Source of the DNA: Pleurostoma richardsiae
Lineage: Eukaryota; Ascomycota; Sordariomycetes; Calosphaeriales; Pleurostomataceae
Length of the DNA: 64,000 nucleotides
Reading direction: 5' to 3'
NCBI GenBank assembly: GCA_030052745.1
Contig: JANBVO010000027.1
Span: forward strand, 62,001 to 126,000
The notes beneath the pieces are model-generated. The model was not told the DNA's origin and ran no database searches. It saw only the letters and a list, made by a program, of their open reading frames with translations. Both the position numbers and the translations under genes were made by a program. How positions within the stretch are numbered: position 1 is the first letter of the stretch; every line of letters starts with the position of its first letter. Of this stretch, positions 3,101 through 25,839 are shown one piece after another.

Positions 3101-5849
3101 CGTCACTGAGGTTGCGACACCTGTCGTGCAGATCGGTGCCGAAGAAGAGAAGTCTCCAGTCGAAGCGGAGGCGTCTGAAGATGTCCCTGAAGAGACTGAG
3201 CATGAGCCAAGTATGCCTGAGCTTCCCGTGGTGTCAGAGACGGACGCCGTGGTAGCAACTCATGCGGATGACCGTTCAGTCGAGGCATCTCTATCTGTGG
3301 AAAAGGAGGAGCCTAGCATGCCTATCTTGGCTGAGGTCCAGGAGACAGACTCCGTGGAAGGCCCTTCCGTCGACGAGCAACCAATTGAGGCATCTCCAGA
3401 GGTTGAGCGTGAGCCCAGCATCCGTGAGCTCGCCGTCATTCCCGAGACAGCCCCTGTGGAAGTTGATGATGCGGATGAGCACCCAGTGGACGATTCTCAC
3501 GTCAGCCCTCCGCCGCTTCCGTCGGAGTTAGACAATGACATCCCGATTCCCGTTTCGGTGGAAGAAGACATCCCCGAAGCGCTCCACGATGCTGAGCAGC
3601 TGCTGGAGGCGGAAGCCGTCTTGTCGGACTTAGGTGACAATGCCATCGCCGATGAAGACATTGGGGAAGCGGAGATCCTAGAAGCGTCAGCAGTGCTTCT
3701 AAGCCCTGTGACTCCTAGTCTATCGGAGGCGACGGGAGACGTCTCGCCCTCAGACTCTGGAGCATCGTATACGGAAGAGGGTCTCCCTGCGGAACATCTT
3801 GAGGAGACTCCGTCCGTCGGGGTCTCAACGGAGGATATTTCGGCTTTAGAGTCTGAGATACCATCCCAGACCGACAACATCGCCTCTGAACAGCATGAAG
3901 AGACTCCGGCAGCCGAGGGCGCTCTGGAGGAAGTTTCGGCTTTAGACTCTGCAATACCGTTCACTGAAGAGGTCAACGCTGTAGAACATTACGAGGAGAC
4001 TCCGGTACCCGAGGTCCCTCTGGAGAGTGTTCCTGCTTTAGATTCCGCAACCTCTCCCGAGACCGGCGATGTCGTCGTGCAGGACCCCGAAGAGACTCCA
4101 GCTGCCGAGATGTCACTGGAGGAAGAGTTAGAGATCCCCGAAGATGCGCAAAGTCCATCGGAGGTGGTTGCAGTCTCCGAGCCTGTGGAATCGGCTGACC
4201 CTAGGCTCTACGTCGAAGAGTTGTCCCGTTCCAAGGTTGACTACTTCGAAGATGAGGATGAGGCACTAGAACCACAGACGCTCCCACCCTCAAGCACGGA
4301 GGAGAATGAAGCCGTACCGGTGCACGCAGACAGCGAAACGCCGATTCTGGCGTCAGCCCTTCCGGCTGAGAGCGTGCCCGAGCTGTCACAACTGCTTTCT
4401 TCGGAGTTAGTTGAGAAACCTAAATCCGATGAGATGGAGAACATCCCCGAGCCCGACCAAATGGTGGAAACAGAGTCCGAAACGCCGACTCTGACATCAG
4501 CCCTATCAAGTGAAAGTGTACCCGGCTCACCCTCTTCGGTGTCTACTGAGGAGCCCAATCCCGATGAGCTGGAGGACGGTCTCGAGCTGGACCAGACGGT
4601 GGAAGCCGAACCTGAGCCGAACGCCGTTTCGGGATCCGTCCAGGACAGCGAAGCGCCCGAGTCGGCGGAGCCTGCCCAGTCAACAGCCGATGAGGTTGGA
4701 GACATCCCCGAACTGTCCCAGACGGAAGAAGTAGAAGCCGAGCCGACCGAGGTTCAAGAGTCCATTCGGGACAGCGATGACCAGGCGGAACCTGCCCAGT
4801 CAGCGACCGATGAGCTAGAGAACACCCCTGAGGTGCAATCGTCGGCGGACACTGAGCCCGAGCCGGACAGCGAATTGTCCGATCGGGTGGAACTTTCCCA
4901 GTCAACGGCCGATGAACTTCTGCCCGCCCTTGAACCCAATCGGTCGGTGGAAGTCGAGCCCGAGCTGGACGGAGTTCAGGAACCTGCTCCGTCAGCGGTT
5001 GATGAGCTCAGCCCTAGTCCGTCGGAGAGTCAAGTACCTGAGGTAGCTATCGTGGAGCTGGAGCCTGTTGTCACCAAGGACTCGTCGGCGTTACCTACCG
5101 CCGACGACTCTCCTGTCTCAGAGCCGCTTCAACAACCATCGGAGATACAGCCGACCCCAGCGCTCGCCGAAAAACCCTCCATCCAGTCCTTGGCTGCCCG
5201 CCGCAGCCCCTACCTCCTCCCTCCCCTGCAGGTCTCCTCCTCCCACACAAGCATCTCCTCCGAGTGGGAGGACTACGACTCCAACGCCGCCCGGACCTCG
5301 ACCTCCAAAGACTCCGTCGACACCATACTCCTCCAGGATGAGTCCGTCCCACCGCCGACTACCCGCCCGGCCGTCCCCCAGCGCCTGAGCACCGCGACGG
5401 CCGGCTACCTCGGCCTGCACGAGACCCGCCTGGTGGAGATGGGCCTGCGCGGCGCCCTCGTCGGCTCCCACCGCTTCGACGCACCCCGTCCCGCTACCGC
5501 CACCTCAGACCTGACCGTCCGCCCCGGCACGCCCCTGTCGCCGTCCAGCGACGCTGCCGCCGCCCCGCGGCCGGCGAAGGCGTCGGTGCGGATCCACCAC
5601 CACCGGCGGACGCGCAGCGCCGGGTTCAAGGCGATGCTGAAGGCGCCGCGGTCGTCGCTCAAGCTAAGGAAGAAGGGGGGAGAGGTCAGCGGGGAGGTGA
5701 CAACCACGACGACGAAGGACGCCTCCGGGCACGAGGACGGAGCGAAGGAGGCGGTGGAGGAGGGCGGGGCCTCCCGGGCGTTGCCGAGGGTCATGATGCT
5801 GTTTGGAGGCCTGGCGCTCGCGTCGCAGATCATGACGAAGTCCTCGTGA
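153..5849 (+). CDS. Large acidic repeat protein, function unknown
   Basis: A single exon of 1,898 residues. I do not recognise a named family; it looks like a Pezizomycotina-specific conserved hypothetical. The frame opens at 114 without an ATG; the first in-frame ATG is at 153. The N-terminus is Arg-rich with short Pro-Glu-Lys-Asp repeats. Residues about 90-600 look globular, with aromatic and Cys/His-containing stretches. From about 640 to 1,750 the chain is extremely acidic, Glu/Pro/Ser/Val-rich and repetitive. It has a degenerate period near 23 residues around 2,230-2,700 and an exact 32-residue tandem unit at 3801-4088. The tail turns basic and ends in a 15-residue hydrophobic stretch (VMMLFGGLALASQIM) that could be a weak tail anchor. 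A scaffold or membrane tether is conceivable, but that is inference. Confidence 0.8.
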   Translation: MAWDACRRRSGHSQTPSSAREGGGRRFSLKNLLVRKSRPKAPEKDTAKAPEKDEALTPDTDTAEVPEKDTEPAPDKLPLVMPLLPATLPPPLQSRGSDSRRSRITAPLEVRVTVRFLDPVIRSVYSRTYESSSALDVTDRLCRGLLRRIQHCSEELITRKDSGALSPAPQCQNKPPKDARFEMDFQVYRKDVGLWSQRTYTSFQKQPLTSETVKEVVRSTHRMIGLFLRRHDAGFRWTDEPVPEYFSEKPATFRPSLEGHLSLCCVPRGRFIESSQSWEFIPGYAVELTMSSHSQFRKEHPDFRKTLRLSSSQSTPLTLALGEELIWQAYRFVQDSLDSRKHLLDMEHRRCDHDPEVTFDCQHFDDYAVEIGLRIVNNLGPAYEHLCRSLRTDLRLFRYPDCADCDEFFEESQVQFSRLRDEVDGQLAKLEDFDFRILDLKGRGWEAHNPARFVLDGPVFYSRRIVEAILDRIQTGVTDVLRGNGVTIHMVAYKRGHLILDKALVARESKAIAAQEGGETPESQKAFFISKLRERIQRDLDLISRDTCYIEDIPDEPLVEPNGPVGVVSSKPEVDTVSREGSPAVLEVSTPTTPTTPTGRVFPLVPSKYRLSSDSIVLANGSSGDLVAALPTAVAVPVPISAPALEETLIRAVDEPEVVVVDEPVLVAVDEAPCVEPTVVVAPQLDDAKELSSEIATTPEEVASLPEEPSFEVETAPTEVIREPEQAHEPSPETIDATENVNAESDDLQEPVSELATAPQEVASVIDSSREPPSEMATALEVASPGPDEAQEASSVTLIVPEEVVPVPESMEEPLVETAVAPVNTISEPKDTQEPLTEKAPAPEEVTSEQENAQVLLESPELQPQSDSLSLRSGDGAESSRPSTPGLSSGGDASPDASLLITPTFVRTMPGSQEPAMRYSDLTLELGTPGPSTDGHLGVVLGKMKAAFEPCLPDGTYPTPPESEVASVDMETAEVLNEPESSDVTEVATPVVQIGAEEEKSPVEAEASEDVPEETEHEPSMPELPVVSETDAVVATHADDRSVEASLSVEKEEPSMPILAEVQETDSVEGPSVDEQPIEASPEVEREPSIRELAVIPETAPVEVDDADEHPVDDSHVSPPPLPSELDNDIPIPVSVEEDIPEALHDAEQLLEAEAVLSDLGDNAIADEDIGEAEILEASAVLLSPVTPSLSEATGDVSPSDSGASYTEEGLPAEHLEETPSVGVSTEDISALESEIPSQTDNIASEQHEETPAAEGALEEVSALDSAIPFTEEVNAVEHYEETPVPEVPLESVPALDSATSPETGDVVVQDPEETPAAEMSLEEELEIPEDAQSPSEVVAVSEPVESADPRLYVEELSRSKVDYFEDEDEALEPQTLPPSSTEENEAVPVHADSETPILASALPAESVPELSQLLSSELVEKPKSDEMENIPEPDQMVETESETPTLTSALSSESVPGSPSSVSTEEPNPDELEDGLELDQTVEAEPEPNAVSGSVQDSEAPESAEPAQSTADEVGDIPELSQTEEVEAEPTEVQESIRDSDDQAEPAQSATDELENTPEVQSSADTEPEPDSELSDRVELSQSTADELLPALEPNRSVEVEPELDGVQEPAPSAVDELSPSPSESQVPEVAIVELEPVVTKDSSALPTADDSPVSEPLQQPSEIQPTPALAEKPSIQSLAARRSPYLLPPLQVSSSHTSISSEWEDYDSNAARTSTSKDSVDTILLQDESVPPPTTRPAVPQRLSTATAGYLGLHETRLVEMGLRGALVGSHRFDAPRPATATSDLTVRPGTPLSPSSDAAAAPRPAKASVRIHHHRRTRSAGFKAMLKAPRSSLKLRKKGGEVSGEVTTTTTKDASGHEDGAKEAVEEGGASRALPRVMMLFGGLALASQIMTKSS
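3801..4088 (+). repeat. Three tandem 32-codon repeats inside the acidic protein
   Basis: Three consecutive units of exactly 96 nt start at 3801, 3897 and 3993. Each encodes 32 residues beginning EETP, with a central S/P-A-L-E/D-S core. A truncated fourth unit begins at 4089. Amino acids diverge between copies but length does not, so the array is old or its length is constrained. Confidence 0.85.
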
Positions 5850-11742: not shown

Positions 11743-14700
11743 TCACCGCCTAGGCAGGCTGTTCCGCCCAAGCTGCCCGGCGGTGTTCCAACCCTGGTGG
11801 ATGCTCTGCCGGACGATCATGGCCGCCGCCTGGCTCGCCGCCATCCGCTCCTTCTGCCGGTGCCTCTCCTTGAGGTACCCCACCGCCTCAGGCCGCATGC
11901 GCAGGATCCGCAGGATCATGTCGTCCGACGGGTCGGCCTGGGCCTCGCGCCGCCGCTCCTCCTTGGCCTGCCGCATCGCCACCAGGTTGCGGTTCATCAT
12001 GATGCTCTTGCCGCGCCGGATCGTGCCCATGCTGCCGAATGCCGCCGCCCCGCTGAATGTCGGCCCGAACGTCGGCGGCGCCGACAGCCGGTTGTGCTGG
12101 AAGGCCTGCCCGCCGGCGGCAGCCTGCTGGAACTGCTGCTGTGCCCGCTGCTGCGTCGCCGCCACCATGCGCTCCGACGTGCGGATCAGGTTCTCGGTCG
12201 TATCGAAGTAGAAGAAGTTGAGCGACGCGAGCTCGTGCCACTTAGGCGACTTGAGCACCTCCGCCGGCACCCCCAGCACCTCGCCGTTCTCGTCCTTGGC
12301 ATTGAAGAACTCGAAGAGCAGTTGTAGCCACTTATACACAACGTCCAGCTCCGCCTCGGTTAGAGGCTTCTGCGACGACGGCTTATCAGACAACGGGGGC
12401 ACCAGGAGCTTCTCGATCGCTATCAGCACTTCCTTCCACAGGCGGGTCATGACCGCCAACATGGTCGCGTCTGTCAGAGTCTGCTTCATGATAGCAAAGT
12501 TCTCGTCGAAATATGTGAACAGCGACTGCAGCGCGTTTTCCACGTCCGCTTGCGTCAGCTGCGGCGCAACAGACTTCCGGTTCTTCCACATGCCTGTAAT
12601 CGAGGCGGCGATGCCACGGCTGAGCAAAGCCTTCAGGGCATCGTGCGACAACGATGCATTGATATGGGCAGTGAGCTGAACACGAGTTAGCAACGTGAGT
12701 ACAACTTCGAAAACGAAGTCCGGTGCAGTCTTACCTTGTCGGTGATCTTGCGCACCATGTTGCGCTCCGTCCTCTTCAGGTGCCTGAAGGCCTTCCCAAA
12801 GTGGAACTGGATATCGTCCTTCTCGCCCTCCATGCTGACTCGTAACAGCAGTCTGCCTTGAGTGTCCAGGTCTAGCCAGAACTCACGGGGGAGGTAGTCG
12901 CTGAAGTGTACGGGATCAAGCTTAAGGGAAGTCCTCCCGACGAAGTCATGGTCTCCGAAAGTATCGTAGTCCCAGATCGTCGCAATCAGGTTCAGAGGGC
13001 CGGTGACTCTTATATCCACGGCCTCGTCCCAGGAAGGATTCAGATTTCTAGGGATGACCCGCGTCTTCGCGAGTCGCTTCTGGTACTCGTCACAAAGAAC
13101 CACATACGGATCACTATAGCCGTTCGGGTCGCAAGCTTTGAGGTCTTCCGCTTCCACAATCTTGACCGTAAAAACGTACGTGCTCGGCCGGCGGATTTGC
13201 TCCTTAGGACCTTCCGCACGACGTAGAACTTCGGCGCATTGTTCAACGTTCATGAGCTTCTCCAGTTTATCAAGCGCCTGCATTGCGTACTCGATATTGT
13301 TCAATTTCACAAATGACTAGAAACGAGTTAGTCGCAATGTCTATAGCATCGCCAGAAACATTGCACATACCTCGGGATAGAATTGGAAGGGTTCAATCCG
13401 GTCCTTCGTGTTCCAGGCGTCCTTGGCCATCTGCATGATGCGCTCCTGTGCTGTCTTTTGGGCCGCGGCAAGCTCCTGAGCCGTCTGTCTGTCCATTTCG
13501 CGGTTGAATCTTTGCTCGACAATCTCGCAGTAGCGACCAATACCCGAAGCAAACGCCTTAGCAAGGGCTGTCATGAACTTGGCATGATGAACGTCGTCGT
13601 CCCACTCCAGCTGGAACACCTGATCGACGGTCTGGTTGAAGAGCTGAAAGACATCGACAACGGAGACGCTGTGGCGTTCCGCATCGCTGGGGATACCGTC
13701 CGGGTTCTGGGTTCGGACCTGGAACTGGTCCTGCTTGATGGCCTGCTCAACGAACTCCTCCATGCGTGTTTCAGCGTTGTTGATCCAGCGCCAAACGAAC
13801 TCCGCCAGGAGGCTCTCAATACTGAAAGCAAATGGGACACCGGGAAGCGATTCGACGTGGATCTTGCGGATGTCCACAAGTTCCTTATACAGATCAAATC
13901 CATCCTGAAGATCGATTTCGACGCCGCGGTCCTTGGCCACGGTGATGATCCTCTCAATTATGACGTTAGCATCCTTCTCGAAATTCGGGAATATCGTCTC
14001 GACAAGGACCGTGAACGGACTGACGCCCAAGATCTCGGGGTTCTTCCGGTAGCGATTCTTTATTTTCTGGCTGAGCCCAGTGACCTTCTTCCCCAAGCCG
14101 ACGACATGGCTGAAGTCCCAGTCTTCCTGACTGATGGGGATTTCGGCATCCAAATAACCACGGTAGACATTGGCAGCTTGTTGGCGGAGGCCCTCAGAGA
14201 GGAGCTTCGAGAACTCCGCAGCGTCCTCCGGCTTCCGGGAGAATGACGGATCGTTGTAGATATGGTTCGTCAGAACATACATGACCGCGCCCACTGACGG
14301 GGGTTTTGGTTCGTAGCAGTGCTGAAGCAGGTCATAGAGGTCTCGGAGGAGAGCATCGTTTAAGCTGTTCAGAGTGTGCTGAAAGACTGCAAAATCCTGT
14401 ATAGTCCACTTGCTGGTATCGATCTCGTGCAACGCCGCATGGTGGCTCTGGATATAGGGCGGCTTCCTGTGCTCTGGAGGTGGCTCCTTCACGAATTCGA
14501 ATACGGCATTCACATCTTCGACACTGATCTCCTCATCCATAAACTTACGGGTAGCAACCTCGAGCAGAGTGACGTGCCGCGTAAACTGAGGAATCCGCCA
14601 GCGGACACACAACTCTGTCAACAACTCCATAGACTGTCTTGACAAAGGGGTGTAGGGTATAGAAGGGTCAGCATGCACCAAGTCGAACTGCATAGCATGC

Positions 14701-15989
14701 TGGAGTATGACCTTGTAATGGGCGCGGGGATCGGGGGGGATGTACGTGTAGCTAGCATCATCTCCACTTCTGATACTGGAAGCATCTTCGATAGACAGAC
14801 TGCTCAAGCTAAGAGACGGGTCGAAGCCCAGCGAGCCCGAGTCTGGGTTGGAGATCATCCTAGCGAGATCAGAATATGCCTGGTCTTCCCCATAGGTGGA
14901 CTGGGGCCGGACAGGTAGAGGCTTCTCGTAGCTCCCAGTGGATGTCTTGCTCAGTTCAGGCCTGGCAGTCAAAATATCGAGCATCATGGAGGACAGGTGG
15001 CCCCGCTCGCCTCTCCTCCATTCCTCAAAGGCATCATCAAGGTCAAAATCTTGCCGTCTCAGTGCGCCGAGCATGTTCGAGTCCAGGCGATGCTGGTAGG
15101 CCTTCAGGTCCTTCAGGGCAGCTTCCTCGGTCCACACGTTGCGGTTCGCATCGATATCAGCCTGCACCTGGGAGTGGACGCGGCCGAAGATCTTTGCAAC
15201 AATCTGCACCATGGGCATGTCCTTGACATCATAGGTCAAAGGCACCTCGACCTCGATGGTCTTGTGCTCCGCATCCTGGCCAGTGTCGATGAACAGGTCT
15301 TGGTCATTCCTGAGCAGCTTCTGCTCCAGCGTGTGGAGACGGCTCATCAGCTCAGGCTTGTCTCGGTCGCCGCCGTGGTCCTTGAGGACATTCGCTATAA
15401 GCCTCACAAACAGAGCAAGGTGCCTGTCGACCAGAATCTTCCAGGTGATGTCTTCTTGACCAGTGTGGAACTGCCTCTGCACCTTGGTCGCGGAGGAGTA
15501 GAAGATGAGGACTAGCGGCTCGAGCTTGCGGTCCTTGTCTATGGATTTGCGGAAGTTGGCATCGGTAAAAGCGATGTATGCCTCGCCGAACGACCTCTTG
15601 ACCGCCGCATCGTTGAAGCCTGGCTGTTTCTCTATTCCCTGCAGCACGCCCTGCATGCGCTTCTCAAGGGCGGCGCGGAAGCTATGCGGGAGCTTGAGGC
15701 TGGAGGTGCTCGAGCCGGTAGGCATGAACTCCTTCATGAGGTCGGTGACGTTGGAGGTGTGTGTGCGGTGGACGGGCTTTGGCGTCGTAATGTACTCCTT
15801 GCGCTTCTTCTTGGGCTGCAAAAGATAGTGCAAGTAGGCGACGCGGAGGGCGAAGCTGTAAGCATCTTCAAAGGTGACGACGGTCTGGAAGGCCCTCGAG
15901 CCAGCGCGCGACCTCCTGCGGGCTTCATCCTGCAGCCTGTTGACGCTGGCCCGGTTCGGCTTCCACGACCTGCTCGACGCCGACGACAT
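11743..15989 (-). CDS. UNC13/Munc13-like protein (MUN domain with central C2)
   Basis: Exons 15989-13371, 13316-12735 and 12675-11743 join in phase 0 to 1,377 residues. Both introns have CTAAC branch points. The order is a basic N-terminus, a long helical region, MHD1 at about 620-840, a C2 domain at about 921-1030, then MHD2 at about 1075-1240. C2 calcium loops are intact: CDPNGYSDPYV and DYDTFGDHDF keep the acidic ligands. This MHD1-C2-MHD2 layout is the fungal Unc13-like family (DUF810/MUN), related to fission-yeast Ync13, which supports exocytosis and membrane priming during cytokinesis. Fusion at hyphal tips or septa is the likely site of action, by inference. The C-terminus is Gln/Arg-rich and not conserved in animal Munc13. 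Confidence 0.9.
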
Positions 15990-18379: not shown

Positions 18380-19775
18380 CTTGGGGACTGATGACGGTTT
18401 GAGTTTGAAGTATCAGTTCAAGGGCCCCGAGGGCTGAGCAGGGAAAGCCAATCTTTTGTATGAGGCAAAGAGCTAGGTTAGTCTACTTCATGGAAGGACA
18501 CTGGATATGGACAAAGCTCTACTTGTAAGCTGATATCATAACCCAACCGTCAGTCCTACAGAACAAGACGTATGCTTGGGAGGTGTTATAGCAGGGCATG
18601 CCACTGCCAGGGAACGCAATGTCTTTGACCACCAATGCGCTCGTCCCGCACAGCACGTTCAGTCAGAAATCCGGCGCAGGTGAGAACGGCACCAGCTGGT
18701 CCAACGCTTCCTCCTAGCAAATGACGACCAACATCACTGCCATCAGGTTATGGATCCGGATGCGAGAGACCAGCCTAGAACCAGTCAGATGTGGCCACCC
18801 TCATCTGAGATTTGGGGGCCCCATCCGGCCAGTGGTCGAGACAGCGCATCCCTCAGGATCAGGTCCACGTACAAAGGACTTTGGAAAAGAAGGCTGCGAG
18901 GTGTGCGGGAAGGCTAGGATAAGCAGGACATCGGCGGTCTTCATCAGTCAGCATCTCCACCCTACGCCGGGTGCTCTACTATATTTTGCGCATAAGCATG
19001 AGCTCGATCCTTCGCCTACTCCGAACCTGGAGGACGGTGTGATGAGACCGGCGTAAAGGCGCACGTGCCCAGTCCCGCGTGCAGTGTGTATAAGGGGAAG
19101 GGCAAACTTCATTACAATGGAACGGTAAGACTCAAGCCTTATACCTATGTATCTATCGATGCTATCACCAAGGAGATAGCCAGGGCACAAACCCACCACA
19201 ATATTTCCTCAAGATTCCACGATCTGGTCACTGTTCCTCCGCCGGCCTTGGGAGAATATGCTAACCTCTAATGAACAGAAGATACCCCTATGACCCGACG
19301 AGTCTGATGAAGGACGGTACCTTGACCAATGATTATGGAATTGGAGAGCCTGCCACACGTTGCCCCCCGGCATCTTGGAAATGGCGGGAATTGCAACGAG
19401 TTGTGGCACACCGGCCCTGCGGTCACTGAGTCTCGAGCCCTCTAGCTGCCGCAGCCTTGCTGCCATGCTCTATTCCATAGGACATACGGCTCTCTTGCGG
19501 CAGCGCGGCAAGAAGCCAGCGGCCTGGACTGCGACCCAACCTTCAGCACGGCTGCATATTCGCGAAGCACCATCTTTCAAAGCCTTTCCAGCTGAACATG
19601 CTCTTTCTTGCACCTTCAGACTGTACAAAATCGGCCTGCCCGCTTTCCGATCCATCTTTCCAAAACCTAGCCAACGTATTTCCTTTATTCACACACTCCC
19701 AGTCCCGAAAGGAAGTTTGTTGTATTCTCTCGCAAGTGGACCGATCGCTTCTTTTCATCCTTTCGGCTCTGCAGT
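18380..19775. other. Gene-poor spacer in the 16-22 kb island
   Basis: Holds the upstream regions of the thioesterase-like and Cys/His-repeat genes. Several ORFs up to about 110 codons exist but lack consistent splice sites or recognisable motifs. I call nothing here. Confidence 0.5.
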
Positions 19776-20552
19776 ATGGCCCATTACCCTCGCAGCATGG
19801 GATTTGTCCCTGGGAACAACGTCTATGGCACTCGCGGCGCGGTCCCCATACCTGGCAACAGCGTCCATGGTCTTGGCAGCATGGTCCATGTTCCTCGCAA
19901 TGTGGCCTCCGCCCCTTGCAGGATAGTCCCTACTCCTCCTAGCAGGGTTCCTCCCGAATCAAAGTGTTACTTCTCAAATTGCGGTTTTAAGCGTTCAGAG
20001 CAGAGTTCCTACTGCGAGAGGCGTAAGTTAAAGTCATAGGTAACCAGAAACCTACCTCAACTCCAATGCTGACGCGGTCTTGCTCCAAATACTAGACACG
20101 TGTTCCGCCCCTGGTGAAGGCGCTCTGTGCAATGTAGCAGTAGCATTTGACGATGCTGAAAGATGCCCGATGCGTAAGCTGTCCCCGTTTCCGCTAAGCA
20201 TGCCTCCGCCTTTCCCTGATTCCCAAGCCCTACGAAGCCTGTTTGGCGATAACTCTAGCTGATCTTCTGCCTTATATACTCTAGATAAATGTAAACATCA
20301 GTTCTGTCCAATGACAAAAATGCAGAACGGATCCGGCTATTGCTCTACACGTAAACGATTAGCATTACCTAACAGATTGGCAAGCAAGATTTAGGATGAA
20401 CTGCTAATGCTATGACAGACTACTCTCCTCCGAGGACGGTTTCGGACTCTCGTCCTCCACAGACGGTGCCCGGAAGGACGGGACCCGTCTATCGTCTTCC
20501 AATAGAGGCAGCCAACTATTCTGACGATAAGTGTGGTTGTACTATACTGTAA
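19776..20552 (+). CDS. Small Cys/His-repeat protein, possible CaaX prenylation
   Basis: A four-exon model I built by hand: 19776-20022, 20096-20173, 20285-20350, 20419-20552, giving 174 residues. The ATG has A at -3 and G at +4. Every intron is phase 1 and splits a His codon as C|AY. Donors are GTAAGT, GTAAGC and GTAAAC; branch points are GCTGAC, GCTGAT and GCTAAT; acceptors are CTAG, CTAG and ACAG. Splicing creates three modules of the form C-x4/8-C-x10/11-C-x2-H, each running on into the next, a likely zinc-binding repeat. The first 60 residues are Gly/Pro/Val-rich. The last four residues, CTIL, fit a CaaX box ending in Leu, which would favour geranylgeranylation. I recognise no named family. 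It sits alone in a gene-poor segment. Confidence 0.6.
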
Positions 20553-21023
20553 CCGGAGGCGTTTAGAGCGTGCTACGCTCTGTAGATGGCGCTGAAATAA
20601 ACTGGCCTCATTTCACTTGCCCCATACAAAACTTCACAGTTCACATGGAGCCAGTACAAGGAGATTCACTCGGAGAAGTTCTTATAGTAATGTATCTTCA
20701 GGCAGAATCACGGGGAGCGTTTCGATCTGGCTTATAGTCGGCCTTAGCAGAGCCAAACCGAGATTGCCAGGTCAATACTCGAATGCTGGAGGATTGAAAA
20801 CCGTGGCGACGGACGACAAGGAATGGACACGTTCAACAGGACTCCGAGTAACCTGAAAACTAGCGACTATTGCGAAAGGTATTGAAGTTGTTTTTGGTGG
20901 TCGAGGATTTCAATGTAGTTTCAAGCTCATGGGCAGATCACGGCCACGCGGCGCCGGGAGCCGGGGGGCCGGAGTCGACGTCACCGGGATGCTCCTCCGG
21001 GATTAGGGGTCTTTTTAGGAGGA

Positions 21024-21038
21024 GGGGGGGGGGGGGGG
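21024..21038 (+). repeat. Run of 15 guanines
   Basis: An uninterrupted G15 preceded by GGAGGA. Such tracts can form G-quadruplexes only if further G-runs join in; the nearby GGGGG runs are few. The length may also be a sequencing uncertainty. Confidence 0.9.
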
Positions 21039-21600
21039 TCAAAGGTGGGCCCTATTCTGACCGTTAGTACACGAGTTAAAGCACCACATCAAAGCCTTGG
21101 ATTTGCGCTAAGGAAGACAAGCCTCGATCTTGTGACGGCCTATCGTGGCATAGTGCGGACAAGACGAGGATACACAAGATTCATAAGCAGGTGCATGTTC
21201 CATTTCTGGCTCGTGTGGCCCTGAGACTTCACGGTACCTAGCTACTGTGATACATAGTAGGACATGATGGTCACGGTGTTTCTCATGTAGAGAGATGCGG
21301 CAGCGGCGCGTGCAGGAACGATAAAATACTTCGGTGCGATAAAGATGGGATCTTTGGCGGCAGACGAGGCCGTTGCTTAAAAGGATGACTTGGTACTTCG
21401 CATAACGTTATGAAAGTTAAGAAATACCTGGTGGTGCATCGCCTTAAGCAGGAGCAATCAGCAGGTGCGATGCAATGTGAGACAGAGACATCGCCTGCCC
21501 TGGGCTGAGTCCCTGACAGATCGATAACGTTAGGCGAAGTACCTCGCCTTGGCCTATGCGAGTTGAGATACCTTGAGGTGCACCAAGTGCCTTGGATGCG

Positions 21601-21645
21601 TACCTTACCTACCTAAGGTAAGGTACCTCAGGTAAGGTAGGTAGG
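21601..21645. repeat. Palindromic GGTAAGGTA/TACCTTACC cluster
   Basis: TACCTTACCT at 21601-21610 is followed by its exact reverse complement AGGTAAGGTA twice, at 21616-21625 and 21630-21639, then GTAGGTAGG. It can fold as alternative hairpins with a 5- or 19-nt loop. GGTA/TACC-rich blocks also occur at 8103-8150, near 6424, 26240 and 33390, so this looks like a dispersed non-coding motif. Confidence 0.8.
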
Positions 21646-22137
21646 CATGGTATATGAATGATACGGGCGTCAAGCCACTTCTTCGCCTCAATGTCAGCCC
21701 GTGACTCGTTAATTCTTAACCTACCAGGCCTACTGCTCCCGTATGACACCCGGCCAACAACGGTTTTTCCCTTTTCCATCGAGCGTTGCCTGCTGCGCTG
21801 CCGCTGCTCTATTCTTGGAAATGGACGAGTTACGTCGGCCCTGTCATTTTACACATCCTTAGGGCGCCTTTTTAGCACCGGCGAGGGGAACAGATCGCCG
21901 TTGCTCCTGGCCTGGGTTGATATTCCTTTGGCTTGGCGTGCGTCCCCCCTGTATCTAACCCCGCCGCTGCGAAACGGGGCCGCCAAATTCCCATTCCGAG
22001 CAGACGGCACTTGCCCCGTTCCTCTTCCAGTTCAACCAACACTTCTTACCGCCGGCCAGCCATCATAGAGCCTCAGTATTCTTGCTCCTCTTCCTCTCCG
22101 CTCCTCGGGAGACGGCCTGTCCTCCAAGTTCCTCGTC

Positions 22138-25100
22138 ATGGGCAATGTCTCCAGCAGGCCCGACGAGGGCGCCGCCCTCTACCTGAGAGACCAGAACCGA
22201 TGTAAGCCTTGCCACGAAACGACGTCGCGACATCCTGCCCTCCTCCCGTCCCCGTCGCCTTCGCCGTCGCCGGCTGCGAGCGAGCGCGCTGACCTTCTGT
22301 TCCACAGTATCCATCTCCTCCGTCGTCGTTAGCTGCCCTCGCAAGCGCACGTCCATAAATATCGTTCCGAATGCATTTCCCGCTACGAGATTATCGGCTG
22401 CCCGTCCTGCGGGCGACAACTCTCCTATCGAGTTTGTTCAGGTGCGCACCTCATCCCTATCCCCTCTCCGCCTCCCCTTTCGCATGCGCTTACCGGCCGC
22501 TCCGGCAGGACACCGAGCTGTCTAGCCCTGGTCTAGGGCCCTCCTTTCTGCTCAAGCTCAGCAACGACGACGACCTCATATTTACGTTTACCTTCATTGT
22601 TCGCCAAATAAAGCAACTACCGCAGAGTGGGGTTGCCGGCAACGTCGAGGCCAACGGGTCGGTCGCCGATACCAACATCAGCGGGCTCACCTATGTCTAC
22701 GCTTCCACTGCTCGAGAGGTCGAGAACCTCGTCACTCGTGAATTCCACGCCGACCCAAACCTGCACAAGAATTCAAATGTCGAACTGGTCGGCGATATCC
22801 ACACTGGCGGTAGCCCTTCGGTGTCGTTCGAGTGGTCATGGAAGTGGAAGCCGCCCAAGAACACAGAGGATAGAGGCGGAGGCTGGCACAATTCCTGCAG
22901 TGTACGTCCAAATCGCCGTGCTCGACTTGCCGGGATTGGGTCGCTGATATACTCCTAGTTTGTAGAATACGACCCACGCGCCCACCGCCTGGATACCCTT
23001 GCCAGCTTTTCGTTCTGGGTGCAGAGTAAGCCGCAAAACGCTGCCTCCACTGGACAGAGACTCATTGCATACAGATACAACCCCCTATCTCAGTCATCCT
23101 AACTCGCCGTCCCCGCCTTTCCTATTGGGCGTTCCACCCAAGAACCGTGTTCCTTCCTCGCAATCGGTCGACTCGAGAATGAGCGGCGTTGATGTCGAAG
23201 AACCTGTCTCTCCGCAGCCCATAGCCACGGAGTTCAACAACGCTATGCTTGTGCCACCGCTTCCCCCAGCCGTTGCTGTGACTGCAGCGGTCTCCAGCTC
23301 TGCCCCTGAACCTGTCAAAGTAGACATCAGTTGCCCTCGTCCCGGTGACGACGTGTCGGTTACGGACGATGGACCTGTCTTCCGGGCTACCATGAAGGCA
23401 CTGGAACAGAAAACGGGCAACATGCGCACGCAGATGAAGAAGGTGATCAAGAAGGCTGAAGCAGCTCATGCAGCACAACTTGAAGCGAATGACGCCTTCT
23501 CGACCTTCATTGACGCACTCAAAGAAGCTTCATCCACCAATGCCAATGCCGTCCAGCCGGCTATCGAACACTACTTCGACAGGATCGCCAAGGAGATCCT
23601 GCGTTATGAAGGCCAGAACGCACACAACCTCTTCAAGATGGTCATCGAACCCCTGAACAAGCTTTATACTATAGATATCAAGCAAGCGGAGGCGAAGAAG
23701 CGTGACTTTGAAGAAGAGAGCAAGGACTACTACGCCTACGTTGGGCGTTATCTTGGCCAGAGGCATGACTCAGTGAAGGCCAAGCAGAGTGATTCGAAAT
23801 ACCAGAACAAGCGGCGCAACTTTGAGCTCAAGCGATTCGACTACTCCTCCTTCATGCAGGATCTTTCGGGCGGTCGAAAAGAGCAGGAAGTCCTATCCCA
23901 CCTCACCAAATACGCCGATGCTCAGGCTAGGGCTTTCCTCGCCGCGTCAAAGAAGGTCGACGCCCTCCTGCCTCAGCTCGAGGCGTTATCGAACGAGGTG
24001 CAGGTGGCAGACAAAGAGTATCAGTACCAGAGACGAGAGAGAGAAGAGAAGCGCCGTCTGTTAGAGAAGAGCAACCTGTCTTATACCGAACCTGAGACCC
24101 CGGTATCAAATGGTCAAGTGATAGCCGCCAACGGTAATCAGTCCAATTCCGAGTCTGACCTAGGTCGAGCGGACAGTACTGGGTCAACACTCAAACCTGT
24201 TGGGAGCGGTAATTCTAACCCCGTGGCCAATCCCGCCGATCTCTCCCGATCTCCGGGAAGTCATGGCCACTCCACGGTCGGGAGCCCTCCTCAGACTTCT
24301 AAGTTCAAGGGCATCCGTGATCTCGAAGAACGTGATCCAATCCAGGCGGTGATCGCGGAGAAGGGCGGTGGCACTCAACGGAAGGAAGGCCTACTCTGGG
24401 CTCTTAGCAGGCCGGGCAGTCATGTGGACCCTCGGTCCTTAAATAAACAGGGATGGCACAAGTAAGTCGACACACCAATGGAGAGCATGCCGTGATGCTG
24501 ACTCTTAACCAGGTTCTGGATTGTTTTGGACCAAGGAAAACTGTCGGAATACAGCAACTGGAAACAGAAGCTCGATCTCCACATGGATCCGATCGATCTA
24601 CGCATGGCGTCCGTGCGAGAGGCCAGGAACGCAGAGCGGAGATTCTGCTTCGAGGTCATAACGCCACACTATAAACGGGTGTATCAAGCAACGTCTGAAG
24701 AGGACATGAACAACTGGATCACATCTATCAACAACGCCCTGCAGAGTGCCGTCGAGGGTCGTGGGGTGCGAGACAAGCCGGCGCACCCGACCACGCCAAA
24801 TGAAACGAGTTCGTTGAGGAGAGACATTGGCTCGATCTTGACTGGCAAGAGCCCTTCTCTCGGCCACGGGCACGCGCCGCCATCTCTCGCCGCGGGCTTC
24901 CCAAGCCGGCGTACTACAGTGGGCGCGAGACCTGTAACTCAACGGAGCAGCAGCAGCAGTTTCGACGACAGTCCGGACAAGTTGCTTCAGATGCTTCGTG
25001 AAAATGACCAGGGCAACTGCTGGTGCGCGGATTGCGGCTCGGGAGCCAAAGTCGAGTGGGTGTCGATCAATCTCGCCATCATCCTGTGCATTGAATGCAG

Positions 25101-25839
25101 TGGAATTCACAGGTCCCTCGGAACCCACATCAGCAAAGTCCGCTCCCTTACTCTGGATATCACATCCTTCACGCCTGATATCGTGGAGTTGCTTCTTCTT
25201 GTTGGTAACCGGGTGTCAAATATGGTCTGGGAGGCCAGGCTGGATCCTGCCCTCAAGCCGACACCGCACGCCACTCGCGAGCAGCGCTTGAAGTTCATCA
25301 CTGCGAAGTATGTCGACAGAGCTTATGTCGAGCCTATCTCCGCAACGCTCTCTCAGTGGCCCACGCCGGAAGAAACACTTCTTGCAGCGATCAAGAAGAA
25401 CGATATCCAGCAGGTGATATATGCTCTGGCTCTCCGTGCAAACCCCAATGTCACCGATAGATCCAGGGGAACACATGCTGTCTTCCTAGCTCTTGCAGCT
25501 GCAGACCCGGCAGCTCCGAGCCCGACGGCAACACCAACGCCACCTGATACCAAGCCTGTGCCGTTTCCTGTCGCCGAAATGCTGATCCAAAACGGTGCTG
25601 AGGTGCCGGCAACTATGCCTGCTTTTCCTCTCAGCCGTAGTGCTCAGCTATACCTGGAACTCAAGCGCGGGAGAGCTGCTGCGATGGCGACCACCGGACT
25701 CGGTTCCCGCGACGGTGTGAGCTCCTTGCCCGAAGCCATGTCGCCGGCGGAGAAGATGGCGAAGGAGAAAGAGGCCCGACTCCAGAAGCGAGTGAGCGCC
25801 GGAGGGAGGCTGGCGAAGTCACCGATCCCCGAAAGGTAG
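22138..25839 (+). CDS. csx2: BAR-PH-ArfGAP protein (Csx2/ACAP-like centaurin)
   Basis: Six exons: 22138-22201, 22308-22441, 22509-22901, 22959-23025, 23075-24461, 24513-25839; 1,123 residues. The family activates GTP hydrolysis on Arf GTPases at curved membranes. The N-terminus MGNVSS fits N-myristoylation (Gly2, Ser6). A fungal N-terminal domain occupies about 20-220. BAR coiled coil is about 318-530, PH about 655-760, ArfGAP about 833-960. The zinc finger reads CADC...CIEC followed by SGIHR with the catalytic Arg; spacing between Cys pairs is 17 rather than the usual 16. Two degenerate ankyrin-like repeats follow (LAAIKKNDIQQVIYALALRA). Aspergillus orthologues are annotated Csx2. Role in endocytic or Golgi traffic is inferred from family. 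Confidence 0.92.

Follow-up and report, generated by a model that had tools for sequence, protein, structure and literature searches.

The locus considered here poses the question of why three introns in one short gene should all interrupt the same residue of a repeated Cys/His motif, and whether this arrangement is accidental, was built by copying exons, or arose when introns entered an existing array. The gene lies at 19776..20552 on the forward strand of a 64,000-nucleotide stretch of Pleurostoma richardsiae DNA (hereafter the window), which forms part of contig C57; the whole genome comprises 39.4 Mb in 136 contigs.

Structure of the window gene

Translation of the spliced model gives a protein of 174 residues encoded by four exons and carrying three Cys3His modules. 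Exon 1 (19776..20022, 247 nt) encodes a Gly/Pro/Val-rich N-terminal part followed by module 1, whose first Cys codon lies at 19965, as far as the first base of the module's His codon; intron 1 (20023..20095, 73 nt, phase 1, GTAAGT..CTAG) splits this residue, His 83. Exon 2 (20096..20173, 78 nt) supplies the remainder of His 83, module 2 (C-x8-C-x11-C-x2-) and the first base of His 109, and is followed by intron 2 (20174..20284, 111 nt, phase 1, GTAAGC..CTAG), whose length is divisible by three but which contains a stop. Exon 3 (20285..20350, 66 nt) likewise completes His 109 and carries module 3 (C-x4-C-x11-C-x2-) up to the first base of the last His, 131, which is split by intron 3 (20351..20418, 68 nt, phase 1, GTAAAC..ACAG, with a branch-like CTAAT); exon 4 (20419..20552, 134 nt) comprises the rest of His 131, a Pro/Thr/Ser-rich tail and the stop codon.

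A preliminary description of this DNA had proposed three GT-AG, phase-1 introns, each splitting a module His as C|AY, and the spliced translation across junctions 20022/20096, 20173/20285 and 20350/20419 bears this out; the recomputed spacings of modules 1–3 (C-x4-C-x10-C-x2-H, C-x8-C-x11-C-x2-H and C-x4-C-x11-C-x2-H) agree with the C-x4/8-C-x10/11-C-x2-H reported there. Its observations of good branch points, of stops in the unspliced frames and of short middle exons running from one split His to the next hold equally, with a CTRAY-like motif and an in-frame stop on retention in each of the three introns, and with exons of 78 and 66 nt leading from His 83 to His 109 to His 131. All nine Cys and three His residues of the modules are present, the frame is unbroken from ATG to stop, and GC3 is an ordinary 0.51.

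The stretch immediately upstream (19576..19775, forward strand) is rich in pyrimidines (C+T 64%, versus 50% in the window) and is likely, by its composition, to be the promoter or 5′ leader of the gene. Within exon 1, N-terminal of the modules, lie three degenerate 21-nt repeats (19811-19894) that share 71-76% identity with the reference copy and specify a peptide repeat of Gly/Asn/Val type. Neighbouring open reading frames include a MUN-domain protein on the reverse strand (13344-15989) and, on the forward strand, BAR and PH/ArfGap parts that probably belong to one gene (22999-25836), the Pfam domains of the window's neighbours being MUN, BAR, ArfGap/PH, eIF2 gamma, Nsp1 and a DDX23-type helicase. 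Among 2-kb bins, that spanning 20001-22000 has the highest TpA/ApT ratio (1.03) and the lowest GC (0.52) of the window, with a G run near 21027.

A family of four modular genes

The modular exon arrangement of the window gene is not chance, because searches of the same genome, with a DNA pattern modelled on such an exon and with protein queries, led to three paralogs, at C126:268k (L018), C126:352k (L035) and C126:666k (L036). The pattern (AG|AY, 3 or 6 bases, TGY..TGY..TGY, 6 bases, C|GTRNG), run in four versions across the 39.4 Mb, gave 16 matches at 15 distinct places, against 8 for control patterns read backwards. Seven places fall in two family genes, one being exon 2 of the window gene and six lying in one C126 gene, and every one of the seven keeps an open, correctly phased frame, compared with one of the eight places outside these genes (L011), where no second module was found within its 3-kb locus. 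Two of the three paralogs came from protein searches.

The window gene is the shortest of the four found: L018 has 12 modules and 11 introns, L036 (reverse strand) 12 modules and five introns, and L035 (reverse strand) 15 numbered modules and three introns, one of these numbered modules being two fused and a four-Cys unit standing before module 1. This first unit of the L035 protein (3832-4021 of its locus, reverse strand) is of the form C-x2-C..C-x2-C, not Cys3His, and has no intron; in L018, a long Gln/His run (3582-3720) splits module 1 between its second and third Cys. Three of the four genes share a single 871-kb contig, C126, yet do not adjoin one another.

Four genes is a lower bound, because protein searches with one member often miss the others: an approximate query sequence of the window gene returned none of the three paralogs, and the window gene was not among the matches in its own genome to either an L018 query or an idealised-module query. 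Weak protein matches on C82 (E 0.14, approximate query), C43 (E 0.024) and C95 (E 0.31) were taken as chance, having no module array in the frames of one strand nearby.

Intron position across the family

All 22 introns in the four gene models are in phase 1 and lie within a module-ending His codon, so that the family has the form of a phase-locked exon array, in which introns of a single phase flank the repeats at equivalent positions; such an intron is present at the His of 22 of 42 modules and absent from the other 20, with L035 the extreme case (three modules of 15 with an intron, 12 without). The His concerned ends a C-x2-H in every instance except one C-x3-H. Junctions read xxC|AYx, internal exons are without exception multiples of three (18/18), and exon lengths range from 60 to 126 nt, each exon holding single or double modules. 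An intron directly after module 2 is common to all four genes. CTRAY-like branch motifs occur in 16 of the 22 introns; seven introns contain no stop if retained, and three of these are also multiples of three.

Because the models had been drawn by eye with the His-codon pattern in mind, a splice search neutral to Cys and His was run, in which codon usage was taken from long open reading frames of the window, Cys/His codons were unweighted, splice weights were set by hand and the modeller's start codon was supplied. This search predicted 21 introns, of which 15 were exact, four shared the donor with another acceptor and two lay elsewhere; set against the models, 19 of 22 donors were recovered without reference to the motif and seven of 22 introns differ. 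The search stopped early in two genes, the window gene and L018. For the former, intron 1 alone was recovered exactly, intron 2 was given the right donor with an acceptor 17 nt downstream, and intron 3 was missed by a path that had already ended after intron 2. Since every predicted family intron cuts the same His codon, the units appear to behave like exchangeable exons.

The module and known protein families

An alignment of 41 modules reads H-x-C-x3-[G/N]-C-...-[Y/F]-C-x2-H-x-C, where the C, C, C and H columns are invariant since modules were picked for those residues; among columns that played no part in the picking, G/N precedes the second Cys in 71%, Y/F precedes the third in 69% and a Cys stands two residues after the His in 88%. 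Given the invariant C/C/C/H spacing, the motif is most naturally read as a putative zinc-binding array, as the preliminary description had suggested.

Against Pfam, all four proteins stay below every cut-off. The window protein gives sub-threshold matches alone (GcrA 0.26, TRM13 CCCH 0.32, WRC 0.81), L035 has no matches, and those of L036 and full-length L018 are likewise sub-threshold and fall on a coiled-coil-like tail and the Gln/His run. Searched singly at E ≤ 1, the modules match ten families, each in one or two of the 41, the best being WRC (0.0018) and DUF5763 (0.0021). Zf_WRKY19 (PF24906) has the same arrangement of short tandem Cx4C...CxxH motifs, which is insufficient for membership: an idealised array scores 55.6 bits against it, above the cut-off, which reflects the look of the motif and not kinship, while none of the four proteins is listed at E ≤ 10, one real module in 41 matches (E 0.28), and the seven places that the profile picks out in the genome all score below threshold and lie outside the four family genes.

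The EsV-1-7 motif is spaced C-x4-C-x16-C-x2-H, unlike most modules of the family, and its profile (PF19114) matches none of the four proteins and one of 41 modules at E 0.54. EsV-1-7 is otherwise comparable in being a tandem eukaryotic Cys/His motif with no assigned function (PMC7457493). The PDB sequence that best matches a module profile is the A20-type finger of TNFAIP3 (2eqg); a profile of 14 modules gave E 0.01, but the lead weakened as E rose to 0.13 with the profile of 41. A20 zinc fingers take Cys as their fourth ligand, whereas His occupies that place in 41 of 41 family modules (rows picked for His), and with neither a significant match nor the Cys ligand the modules were not assigned to this type. 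An origin from transposons was rejected, the CxC6 domain of KDZ transposases being weakly like the idealised module but like only one of 41 real modules at E ≤ 1.

Ten selected flanking reading frames around the paralogs carry Nop, Fungal_trans_2, Myb, ADH and DUF3716 domains, of which Fungal_trans_2 and DUF3716 are fungal-specific, and no transposase. Together with the Pfam domains next to the window gene, these two point to a filamentous fungus and probably to an ascomycete. The view that the window gene encodes an undescribed protein is uncontradicted, in that no Pfam cut-off is reached and no such fungal Cys3His module family is described among the best-ranked literature matches listed. 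The family's proteins are probably carried as hypothetical in annotation, because the modules reach no Pfam model, and the family may be widespread, though unnamed, in fungi.

Putative function of the window protein

The C-terminus of the window protein, CGCTIL (20532..20549, forward strand), is of the CaaX type noted in the preliminary description, with CTIL at 20538-20549 and a second Cys two residues upstream. CaaX ends with a final Leu, such as CTIL, are of the geranylgeranyl type, and a prenylation signal is plausible here. The other three family proteins have no CaaX end, and CTIL is therefore a feature of the window member only. Tails among these paralogs differ, that of L018 being rich in Arg, Asp and Ser and that of L036 coiled-coil-like, so the family seems to put one type of array on different tails.

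From these features, the window protein is most likely a small, membrane-tethered adaptor built on zinc modules. Each module, of 20-40 residues and the general form H-x-C-x3-[G/N]-C-x(8-16)-[Y/F]-C-x2-H-x-C, would hold one zinc ion through its C, C, C and H; the three would together bind a partner, the N-terminal part would be flexible, and a geranylgeranyl group on the CTIL end would hold the protein at a membrane.

A zinc array that binds nucleic acid, in the manner of CCCH fingers, is an unlikely though reasonable alternative to the membrane adaptor, to which the weak likeness of single modules to WRC, zf-C3Hc3H and TRM13 CCCH (each in one or two of 41) and the Arg/Asp/Ser-rich tail of the C126:268k paralog lend some weight. 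CCCH fingers are spaced C-x7/8-C-x5-C-x3-H, however, a spacing found in none of 42 modules, and those of the window gene are not C-x8-C-x5-C-x3-H fingers; the CaaX end of the window protein and the coiled-coil-like tail of the C126:666k paralog also speak against binding of this kind.

Origin of the exon arrays

Wherever the family models have an intron, it interrupts the His codon that closes a module, directly after that codon's first base, and exons therefore begin with AY and finish with C. A copy of such an exon placed in any of these introns would restore His on both sides and keep the frame, and the family most likely arose through duplication of a phase 1-1 exon, with intron-poor members derived by later intron loss or by duplication within exons. 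We regard the account as a whole, in which phase 1-1 exon duplication produced the family and the window gene is its shortest member, encoding a membrane-held zinc adaptor, as probable with moderate confidence.

The preliminary description had the window gene itself growing by duplication of a phase-1 exon, a proposal that best accounts for the whole family, though not for this gene alone; DNA traces of duplication are marginal at best. A second module with a long first loop occurs in all four genes (8, 8, 8 and 13 residues); first loops of at least 7 residues occur in six of 42 modules, four of them at position 2 if the four-Cys unit of L035 is taken as its first unit (hypergeometric 1.3e-4, for a feature picked post hoc). 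The sequence S-K-[YF]-C is common to the first units of L018, L035 and L036. Taken together, these features suggest that the ancestor was already multi-module and that the intron after module 2 was inherited; because the long-loop second module is shared by all four genes, they further suggest that the three modules of the window gene were inherited and that it did not grow on its own. On this view the arrays did not start from the window gene, which is a short member of a family that was modular before it.

Comparison of the DNA gave no clear similarity between introns or between exons of the four genes, as judged by local scores against shuffles. Introns of the same gene reach a best local score of 15, and mononucleotide shuffles do not exceed 11, but when resampling preserves neighbour frequencies six of 200 sets reach 15 and 47 of 200 reach 13, and the best intron match is a pyrimidine run; similarity between introns is hardly above chance. 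Exons score 16 at best within a gene (14 shuffled) and 22 between genes (21 shuffled). Any exon duplication is, on this reading of the sequences, old.

The same lack of clear duplicated DNA in introns or exons would be expected had an intronless repeat array come first and introns then been inserted repeatedly at one preferred site in the His codon, and intron-poor arrays such as that of L035, with 12 of its 15 modules intronless, do occur in the family. Parallel gain nevertheless strikes us as improbable, since it demands that up to 22 insertions all struck the same base of the same codon while the rest of the four genes received none. AG|G, the proto-splice site, is the target usually proposed for new introns; the site here is C|AY, and conservation around it is limited to Cys, His and, more loosely, a few further positions.

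It is similarly improbable that the window gene is undergoing decay as an unexpressed fragment of the family whose exons have stayed open, for although it is short (three modules against 12–15 in the paralogs), single, on a contig apart from the other three genes (by protein searches, one with an approximate query) and of ordinary GC3, it retains a full-length frame, usable splice sites at three introns, all of its module Cys and His residues and a pyrimidine-rich stretch upstream. RIP-like mutation is an unlikely cause of any decay, in that the 2-kb bins show no extreme dinucleotide ratio around the gene, except for TpA/ApT in 20001-22000.

Comparison with known exon-per-repeat systems

Animals have genes with one exon per repeat and a constant intron phase, and Tetrahymena has them in extreme form. 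Because each internal exon in the present family is a frame-neutral cassette that starts and ends within a His codon, with ten consecutive internal cassettes in the C126:268k gene, exon skipping could yield zinc arrays of varied length and composition from a single gene, on a plan independent of both the animal 1-1 modules and the leucine-rich repeat (LRR) genes of Tetrahymena; we put this forward as a highly speculative possibility.

The Tetrahymena LRR genes are the closest published gene architecture found, with arrays of 90-bp, phase-2 exons, nearly 50,000 in number, that were explained by exon shuffling and for which the authors state that they knew of no comparably uniform tandem repeats in any other eukaryote (PMC6564038). 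The two systems have in common repeats laid out as separate exons, a single intron phase and a split junction codon; they differ in that the Tetrahymena exons encode leucine-rich repeats in phase 2 and measure exactly 90 bp (PMC6564038), whereas those of the present family encode Cys3His modules in phase 1 and span 60-126 nt, with half of the modules intronless. Exons of uniform length, and recent copies that still resemble one another in DNA, both traits of the Tetrahymena genes, were not found in the four fungal genes. The fungal plan instead combines short introns and a different repeat with the presence of both intron-rich and intron-poor paralogs in one genome, and a filamentous fungus of this kind would allow exon duplication, intron loss and intron gain to be distinguished in a tractable organism.
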